DNA of 64,000 nt. Origin: Litchfieldia alkalitelluris. GTDB lineage: Bacteria; Bacillota; Bacilli; Bacillales; Salisediminibacteriaceae. The stretch is taken from contig NZ_KZ119600.1 of the NCBI RefSeq assembly GCF_002153425.1, positions 1,409,103 to 1,473,102 of the forward strand, written 5' to 3'. The position numbers and the translations under genes were made by a program. Positions 5,018 through 25,490 of the stretch are shown one piece after another (the first letter of the stretch is position 1; every line of letters starts with the position of its first letter). The notes beneath the pieces were generated by a model. The model did not search any database and had not been told where the DNA came from. It saw only the letters and a program-made list of their open reading frames with translations.

Positions 5018-5133
5018 GCGGACTATGACTCAGTTTTTCTTATATCGAGCGTTTTACTAGAGCTGAAATTAAAAATGCATTATGATGAACGAAACTAACT
5101 TGTACTTAAAAGTGAAGGAAGGAGATATCCATT

Positions 5134-5655
5134 TTGAAGTTGTGGAAAGGAATCATCTTATTGGGTTGTATGTTGTTATTTCTAGCTGCCTGTTCAGGAA
5201 ATGATCAAGGTAATGCTGGTGATACAACGCCATATGACCCTGCAACCTTTGAATTTGCCATGCCTAATACGACTGGTGAAGCTGTATCATTAGTACCTAA
5301 TGGAAAAACATTATATTTATATTTTACAGGAGTTGGCTGAGGAACTTGCATTCAACAGCTGGTTCAGCTGAATAGCCAAATAGAATTGTTTGAAGGAATG
5401 GAGGTCGTGGCAGTCAGCCCGTCCACACCTCAGGATCATCAACAATTGCAGGAAGAATATAATATCCAATTTGAAATTTTAACTGATATTGACTATTTAT
5501 TTGCCATTGAGCACGGATTTGTCGATGAGGAAGAAGGTGCTATCTACCGGGGCTATCTTGGAGTCAACCCAGATACTGGAGCACAGAGTAAAGAAATCGA
5601 TTATTTGGTCGGTCAAAACACAGAAACCATTGCAGAGTTGATGGAAGATTTGTAA
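5134..5655 (+). CDS. Redoxin-type lipoprotein with in-frame TGA at the CxxC position (candidate selenoprotein)
   Basis: One continuous frame of 173 residues if the single TGA at 5338-5340 (residue 69) is read through. N-terminal signal with lipobox FLAACS marks a lipoprotein, anchored outside the membrane. The rest is a thioredoxin/peroxiredoxin-like fold: FEFAMPNTTGEAV, then LYLYFTGVG-U-GTC-IQQL, then VVAVSPSTP and FEILTDIDYLFA. In AhpC/TSA-like redoxins this strand-turn carries a CxxC (compare G-V-x-C-x-x-C). The TGA sits exactly at the first Cys, giving UxxC. 68 codons before and 104 after are open with normal codon use. Start TTG 5134 follows AAGGAAGGAGAT. Two readings are possible: selenocysteine, supported by the hairpin just downstream, or a TGC/TGT-to-TGA nonsense mutation making a pseudogene. 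Confidence 0.7.
5346..5379 (+). promoter_or_regulatory. SECIS-like hairpin immediately 3' of the in-frame TGA
   Basis: Stem ATTCA (5350-5354), 3-nt 5' bulge ACA, stem GCTG (5358-5361), loop GTT (5362-5364), CAGC (5365-5368), TGAAT (5369-5373). A lower stem can add C5349-G5375, G5348-C5376, T5347-A5378 and T5346-A5379 with single unpaired bases. The loop starts 21 nt after the TGA and opens with GU, as in bacterial SECIS elements. The base pairing is seen; the role is inferred. Chance hairpins of this size do occur in coding sequence. Confidence 0.5.
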
Positions 5656-5728: not shown

Positions 5729-6092
5729 TCTTATGGACAGGTTTACGGTTTGGAGCTGGAAAACTGTCGATAAAGCGGGCTCTAATGGACAGATTTGTGT
5801 TTTCAAACTGAAAAACTGTCGATAACCCGAGCTCTAATGGACAGATTTAAGTTTTCAAACTGAAAAACTGTCGATAAAGTGGGCTCTAATGGACAGATTT
5901 GCGTTTTCAAACTGAAAAACTGTCGATAACCCGAGCTCTAATGGACAGATTTAAGTTTTCAAACTGAAAAACTGTCGATAAAGTGGGCTCTAATGGACAG
6001 ATTTGCGTTTTCAAACTGAAAAACTGTCGATAATCCAAGCTGTAATGGCCAGATTTGCGTTTTCAAACTGAAAAACTGTCGATAATCCCAGC
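5729..6092. repeat. Tandem array A: seven 52-bp units
   Basis: Units begin at 5729, 5781, 5833, 5885, 5937, 5989 and 6041, with exact 52-bp spacing. Each carries TAATGGACAG ... AACTGAAAAACTGTCGATAA, so the GACAG/CTGTC pair can form a hairpin. Middle copies alternate (GATTTAAG with GATTTGCG, and CGATAAAGTGGGC with CGATAACCCGAGC), showing a higher-order 104-bp duplication. The first and last copies are the most diverged. It lies between the redoxin lipoprotein gene and galK, with no unique spacers, so it is not CRISPR. Confidence 0.95.
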
Positions 6093-24599: not shown

Positions 24600-24636
24600 A
24601 GCGAAATTATAAAGTATTGTAAGAATATAGCTTGGT

Positions 24637-25490
24637 ATCTCACGCGAGATTCTTAATTTAGTTCATTTTCGCGTTCGATAAGCAGTCTATCTCACGCGAG
24701 TTTCTTAATTTAGTTCATTTTCGCGTTCGATTAGCGGCCAATCTCACGTGAGATTCATACTTTAGCTCTTTTTCGCGTTCGATTAGCAGCCTATCTCACG
24801 TGAGATTCTAGATTTTGCACATTTTCGCGTTCGATTAGCAGCCTATCTCACGTGAGATTCTAGATTTTGCACATTTTCGCGTTCGATAAGCAGTCTATCT
24901 CACGCGAGATTCTTACTTTTACTCATTTTCGCGTTCGATAAGCAGTCTATCTCACGCGAGATTCTTACTTTTACTCATTTTCGCGTTCGATTAGCGGTCT
25001 ATCTCACGCGAGATTCAAGATTTTGCACATTTTCGCGTTCGATTAGCGGTCTATCTCACGCAAGATTCTTAATTTAGCTCATTTTCGCGTTCGATTAGCA
25101 GCCTATCTCACGCGAGATTCTAGATTTTGCACATTTTCGCGTTCGATAAGCAGTCAATCTCACGCGAGATTCTAGATTTTGCACATTTTCGCGTTCGATA
25201 AGCGGCCTAACTCACGCGAGATTCTTACTTTTGCTCTATTTCGCGTTCGATAAGCAGCCTATCTCACGCGAGATTCTAGATTTTGCACATTTTCGCGTTC
25301 GATAAGCGGCCTAACTCACGCGAGATTCTTACTTTTGCTCTATTTCGCGTTCGATTAGCACCTTATCTCACGCGAGTTTTTCACTTTTGCTCTATTTCGC
25401 GTTCGATAAGCAGCCTATCTCACGCGAGATTCTCCCTTTTGCACATTTTCGCGTTCGATTAGCAGTCAATCTCACGCGAGTTTCTCATCT
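24637..25490. repeat. Tandem array B: sixteen 52-bp units plus a partial
   Basis: Units start every 52 bases from 24637 to 25469 with no change of period at the junctions checked. Each contains ATCTCACGCGAGATTC (hairpin ATCTC-ACGC-GAGAT) and a constant TTTCGCGTTCGATAAGC or TTTCGCGTTCGATTAGC. Three adjacent copies (24741, 24793, 24845) have CACGTG in place of CACGCG, making a perfect 14-bp palindrome. It lies between the FGGY kinase terminator and the GntR operon. No spacers, so not CRISPR. Confidence 0.95.

Follow-up and report, generated by a model that had tools for sequence, protein, structure and literature searches.

Peroxiredoxins are characterized by the active-site motif PxxxT/SxxC, in which the Cys is the peroxidatic residue. 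TlpA is a membrane-anchored, exported protein of the thioredoxin fold with a CxxC-type pair. In Bradyrhizobium, TlpA acts as the reductant of ScoI and COX II (PMC6696091). Among selenoproteins, Table 1 of PMC13188914 lists Prx-like thiol:disulfide oxidoreductases, which combine the PF00578 domain with a UxxC or UxxU motif (representative WP_010940744.1), and a Redoxin family selenoprotein with the PF08534 domain and UxxC. The Prx-like kind is named in deltaproteobacteria such as Geobacter, with a distant form in Syntrophomonas, in a 2006 survey that gives three selenoproteins for Bacillales (PMC1794560). The excerpts of the literature that were searched, including parts of PMC13188914, PMC1794560, PMC9312934, PMC5029168, PMC6696091, and PMC12013277, name no lipoprotein selenoprotein from Bacillales; Haft and colleagues may have described one earlier.

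A gene with the domain and motif of the Prx-like kind is found at positions 5134..5655 (+ strand) of a 64,000-nucleotide stretch of Litchfieldia alkalitelluris DNA, hereafter the window. On comparative evidence, the gene very probably encodes a selenoprotein in which UGA is read as selenocysteine (Sec). Its frame, delimited by a TTG start and a TAA stop and supported by orthologues, comprises 173 residues plus the stop, and a TGA at 5338..5340 (+) is the sole interruption. A plain list of open reading frames retains only the 89-residue tail after this TGA. The ribosome binding site AAGGAG (5119..5124, +) is read from the sequence 9 nt 5' of the TTG. The TGA corresponds to residue 69 and opens a CxxC-type motif, UGTC, in which Cys72 (5347..5349, +) would pair with Sec69 and falls in the column of the peroxiredoxin peroxidatic Cys. 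The Pfam AhpC-TSA model matches residues 40-147, across the TGA, with an E-value of 2.2e-13 and 50.6 bits (cut-off 26), whereas PF08534 (Redoxin) scores 24.5 bits, under its cut-off of 26.6. Residues 17-20 (5182..5193, +) form a lipobox, LAAC, whose Cys20 is invariant in all 47 rows of an alignment picked from 92 loci. Because the lipobox is conserved, the product is predicted to be a bacterial lipoprotein, exported and lipid-anchored on the outer face of the membrane. The same 47 rows keep T65, U69, C72, Q75, L76, L79, S95, D118, R139, and G140 invariant, with Arg139 (5548..5550, +) aligning with the active-site Arg of peroxiredoxins. An earlier note on this DNA had proposed the 173-codon frame with one TGA at the first CxxC position, the lipobox, the TTG start with a ribosome site, and the redoxin assignment, and each of these is borne out by the sequence and the Pfam match.

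The TGA is shared by relatives of the window gene. A search of 35 genomes of the GTDB family recovers the gene in 26, with one TGA each and at the same codon in 26/26 orthologues. In the order, 397 genomes searched with a profile give 78 one-TGA matches in 74 genomes; 12 of these are already among the 26 family loci, and the 66 further loci bring the total to 92. All 66 carry U..C..QL, and TGA at the identical codon, within UxxC, is present in 92/92 loci read in the GTDB family and order, which span 17 group-coded families. At the class level (398 genomes), two new close TGA loci (L190 and L191) and a distant one (L192) extend the conserved TGA outside the order, while a search of 398 genomes of the phylum finds TGA matches in the host genome (G000) and in G117 only. 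A scan of named contigs with the single window protein as query yields no relative; with the alignment as query, the same scan yields 13 named loci, and Evansella vedderi and E. clarkii are among the named records carrying the gene. The genomes of these two species are assigned to the same genus as the window, which would accordingly belong to their GTDB genus. These 13 were kept out of the 92, because 1500-base stretches of ten were compared with counted rows and all ten proved identical; L089, L090, and L092 are the named loci outside that comparison. Also outside the 92 are L190-L192, the repeat copies L050-L061, L169, L170, and L186-L189, and two weak TGA matches in the family genomes G001 and G002.

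Since the TGA is the only interruption of its frame and differs from TGC or TGT by one base, it could also be a nonsense mutation or a sequencing error at a Cys codon, which would make the gene a pseudogene. The earlier note had suggested examining this column in homologues and would have given up the selenoprotein if close relatives had Cys and this strain alone TGA. The relatives carry TGA instead, and none of the 26 family and 66 further order loci has Cys. The occurrence of TGA at one codon in 92/92 loci of 17 group-coded families, the frame that stays conserved 3' of the TGA in the 47-row alignment, and the presence of SelB in all 74 carriers of the order sample leave this explanation a negligible probability, and the conserved TGA contradicts it.

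The machinery for Sec decoding is complete in the host genome, where the earlier note had advised looking for selA, selB, tRNA-Sec, and selD; all four are found over their cut-offs. The tRNA-Sec (C1:2571330-2571422) scores 55.1 bits against an Rfam cut-off of 47 and is also called by ARAGORN, with anticodon tca. The selB gene lies at C1:2568660-2570519 (389 bits, over cut-off), selA at L049:9807-11261 (527.1 bits, cut-off 267.9), and selD at L049:12325-12600, continuing at L017:430 (382.9 bits, over cut-off). The selD frame itself holds a TGA, in GUGCK, the usual Sec position of SelD. As a separate observation, an integrase-like ORF (L001:1716-2999) lies just past the 3' side of tRNA-Sec (1501), by eye as if a mobile element used tRNA-Sec as its attachment site.

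The window gene and this machinery occur together. Among the 397 order genomes, 74 have both the gene and SelB, none has the gene alone, 105 have SelB alone, and 218 have neither (Fisher p 7e-31, not corrected for kinship); nine candidates per genome were scored for the gene and three for SelB, and the absences are therefore soft. In the GTDB family, SelB and tRNA-Sec are over cut-off in 25 of the 26 gene carriers, the exception (G017) being a 76% complete genome. Five other family genomes without the machinery also lack the gene, and G011, G014, G015, and G020 have the machinery and no gene (Fisher p 0.002). With SelB over cut-off in 179/397 sampled genomes, this order commonly decodes Sec, and the earlier note's description of a selenoprotein here as unusual was too strong.

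A bacterial-type SECIS hairpin with the core CAGCUG-GUU-CAGCUG (5356..5370, +) is identified by RNAalifold, covariation, and codon use. Its stem begins 15 nt and its loop (5362-5364) 21 nt past the UGA. RNAalifold, run de novo on sets of 26 and 92 sequences, returns the same 6-pair hairpin, with columns 27-32 paired to 38-43. Across the 92 sequences, every cell of the five core pairs holds a standard pair (100%), and the outer pair 27/43 is kept in 82/92 with many two-sided changes. The sixth, innermost pair of the window stem (33/37) forms in only 8/26 family sequences. According to the bSECIS model in PMC13188914, the upper stem has 4-16 bp, the loop has 3-9 nt with a G in its first two positions and lies 16-37 nt past the UGA, and the MFE is at most -7.5. 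The window hairpin has 6 bp and the loop GUU at 21 nt, and its energy only just reaches the limit, at -7.5 for a 20-nt piece and -6.4 for the 15-nt core. Folded alone, the window RNA is no more stable than its shuffles (z 0.25), with hairpin pair probabilities in isolation of 0.34-0.53, and single-sequence folding was rejected as proof of a SECIS element on that z value.

Codon use within the hairpin is constrained where the protein sequence leaves freedom. Core pair 30/40 joins base 3 of the Gln75 codon to base 1 of the Leu79 codon, both synonymously free. Over the 92 loci, these codons occur as CAG/CTG in 65, CAA/TTG in 21, and CAG/TTG, a G-U pair, in six; CAA/CTG is never seen. Leu79 is encoded by CTG or TTG in 92/92, compared with 26% elsewhere in the same genes. 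Position 78 (Glu, Gln, or Lys) has a codon with AG as its last two bases in 92/92, and GAA makes up 72% of the Glu codons elsewhere in these genes. The loop is a G followed by U or G in 92/92, from the residue 77 codons GTT, GTC, GTG, GGT, and GGG. None of 500 shuffles reaches the observed number of two-sided-change cells, and none of 500 the covariation score; two of the five measures, namely how many pairs and how many pair types there are, are matched by 500/500 shuffles. On the tree, each side of pair 30/40 has changed ten times. Of six independent pairs on starred branches, a mean of 4.7 agree in direction and none disagrees (median p 0.0625), and the tree-corrected covariation is not significant on its own.

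Homologues with Cys at the Sec column bear on how the UGA is read. The view that no Cys relative exists was dropped once the class-level search (398 genomes) gave L193, a distant homologue with TGC at the Sec column and the one full-length Cys homologue found, with 23% identity to the window protein. Its hairpin is broken, because pair 30/40 would be A-C, and its genome has no SelB over cut-off; SelB is present in the genomes of L190-L192. Nine of the 20 stop-free matches of the order search were read (L141-L149), comprising four PrxQ-type (TPGC) sequences, two of AhpC type, and three CxxC redoxins without a lipobox. All 15 non-TGA matches of the phylum search were read and are of AhpC or PrxQ type except for one CxxC redoxin, L174. 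This protein and the three from the order (L141, L146, and L149) look cytosolic and have Cys at the Sec column. It is conceivable that the UGA is read in another way, by near-cognate suppression or insertion of Cys or Trp, and that the hairpin is a by-product of the QLVxL motif, given that Q75, L76, V77, and L79 are conserved in themselves. Such a reading is very improbable, however, in view of the constraint and covariation at synonymous positions, the loss of the hairpin in L193, whose genome shows no SelB over cut-off, and the co-occurrence of the gene with SelB.

Reading as Sec is thus preferred. The ribosome, with SelB and Sec-tRNA, would decode the UGA at 5338 as selenocysteine by means of the SECIS hairpin in the QLVQL codons. 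Given the Sec kit of the genome, the conserved TGA, and the covarying hairpin, a nonsense change or read error is no explanation, and the same three lines of evidence support the selenoprotein that the earlier note had put forward.

The window gene is one of several candidate selenoprotein genes in its genome. A PF00578 search returns 16 loci in the host genome, three of them with TGA: the window gene, a PrxQ-like gene with TPGU (L153, G000:C1:3884221-3884595), and an AhpC-like gene with TFVU (L154, G000:C1:2283091-2283474). Folding predicts hairpins 3' of the UGA in both L153 and L154. Formate dehydrogenase was considered as a Sec client of this genome and rejected, as its alpha subunit has three matches there, one over cut-off, and TGA in none.

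The fold of the window protein was predicted with AlphaFold from 12 sequences, with C written for U (mean pLDDT 87). In Foldseek comparisons with the PDB, the best matches are mostly PrxQ/BCP proteins, with an E-value of 2e-10, a TM score of about 0.7, and 12-16% identity to the top ten. In alignments with peroxiredoxins, Sec69 occupies the Thr/Ser position of the motif, Cys72 that of the peroxidatic Cys, and Arg139 that of the active-site Arg. The predicted model and the alignments thereby give a peroxiredoxin fold with its active-site Arg, and the canonical PxxxT/SxxC motif is absent from the window protein, which has Sec at the Thr/Ser column and no Pro. The window protein and eight further members all stay below the cut-off of every NCBIfam model. 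The SelL-related redox protein model (NF040769, cut-off 120 bits) gives 17.7 bits for the window protein and at most 34.3 among the eight others, and the ResA model (NF002854, cut-off 170 bits) gives 20.9 bits for the window protein. In an NCBIfam scan of the 47 rows at E <= 0.001, for which cut-offs are not shown, SelL_rel_redox matches 36 members and a TUGYCR-motif (seleno)protein model matches seven.

SCO1 and CtaG are oxidase-assembly proteins, and their genes lie upstream of the selenoprotein gene in some clades. SCO1/SenC lies directly upstream on the same strand in 15/92 loci (9/9 f35 rows and 6/6 f3 rows), CtaG precedes SCO1 in the nine loci whose flanks reach that far, and a cupredoxin lipoprotein lies downstream in 10/10 f46 loci; these neighbours were assigned by Pfam on one example each. 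A YtkA-like gene is upstream in L107 by Pfam, with look-alikes by eye in L100 and L127. In most order loci, the flank covers only about 500 bases. SCO1 or cupredoxin clusters are seen in 0/26 family loci, and the examined flanks of the window's own clade show no conserved neighbour of evident copper or redox function. The neighbours of the window gene are an old-yellow-enzyme-type gene and gal genes, the latter recognized by eye.

Repeats and a possible frame disruption are also visible in the window. Just downstream of the selenoprotein gene, at 5729-6092, are about seven tandem units of 52 bases with a higher period of 104 bases, and a second 52-base array, with a different unit in about 16 copies, occupies 24636-25485. 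By eye, a glycosyltransferase-like sequence at 418-1693 seems divided between an ORF at 418-714 and another, in a different frame, at 794-1693; a frameshift may be the cause.

The function suggested by these features is that of an extracytoplasmic thiol-disulfide (selenenylsulfide/dithiol) oxidoreductase, which we consider probable, rather than that of a peroxidase. The substrate, a disulfide or else a peroxide, would be attacked by Sec69, with Cys72 resolving the intermediate. A seleno-peroxiredoxin acting on extracellular peroxides is a lesser but genuine possibility: the predicted fold is that of a peroxiredoxin, the sequence relatives are AhpC/PrxQ and other redoxins, Arg139 is conserved, and Cys72 aligns with the peroxidatic Cys. 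However, the window protein lacks the PxxxT portion of the motif, and the CxxC-type pair, together with the SCO1, CtaG, and cupredoxin neighbours of other clades, fits a thiol reductase better. As a client of such an oxidoreductase, the extracytoplasmic assembly of the copper sites of cytochrome oxidase (SCO1 and CuA) can be suggested tentatively from gene neighbours in other clades, by analogy with the reduction of ScoI and COX II by TlpA. Because the window gene's own neighbours give no such hint, this client is something that we can only infer. Equally tentative is a wider model, in which part of the copper-site assembly of cytochrome oxidase in these bacteria would depend on selenium, with the Sec-Cys lipoprotein keeping the thiols of SCO1 and CuA reduced outside the cell. 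In this model, Sec decoding would serve extracytoplasmic thiol chemistry and peroxiredoxins, not formate dehydrogenase.

A selenoprotein family of this kind, predicted to be exported, runs through the order, in 74/397 sampled genomes. It offers a testable reason for the retention of the Sec machinery in these bacteria and may connect selenium with the assembly of respiratory copper sites. Ordinary gene finders break these genes at the UGA. Because none of the nine members tested reaches an NCBIfam cut-off, public databases may contain copies that are fragmented or wrongly named.

Compared with known systems, the window family combines features of several. With PrxQ/BCP and AhpC, it shares the fold, a Cys at the peroxidatic column, and the active-site Arg; unlike them, the window protein has Sec in place of the motif Thr/Ser, is a predicted lipoprotein, and scores far under the NCBIfam cut-offs. 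TlpA resembles it in being anchored and exported, with a CxxC-type pair and a link to SCO proteins, but the window protein is nearer to the peroxiredoxins and has Sec for Cys, and its link to SCO1 is by gene order in some clades only. The PF08534 selenoprotein of PMC13188914 Table 1 has a Redoxin-type domain and UxxC in common with the window protein, which falls under the PF08534 cut-off. With the Prx-like kind as described in PMC13188914, the window family shares PF00578, UxxC, and a predicted redox function. PF00578 is over cut-off in the window protein and UxxC is present in 92/92 loci, the combination given for that kind. The window family differs in its predicted lipid anchor, in its occurrence in Bacillus relatives, and in its extended motif UxxCxxQL. 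Judged by sequence, domain, and motif, it is probably a branch, predicted to be lipid-anchored, of the Prx-like UxxC selenoproteins already known.
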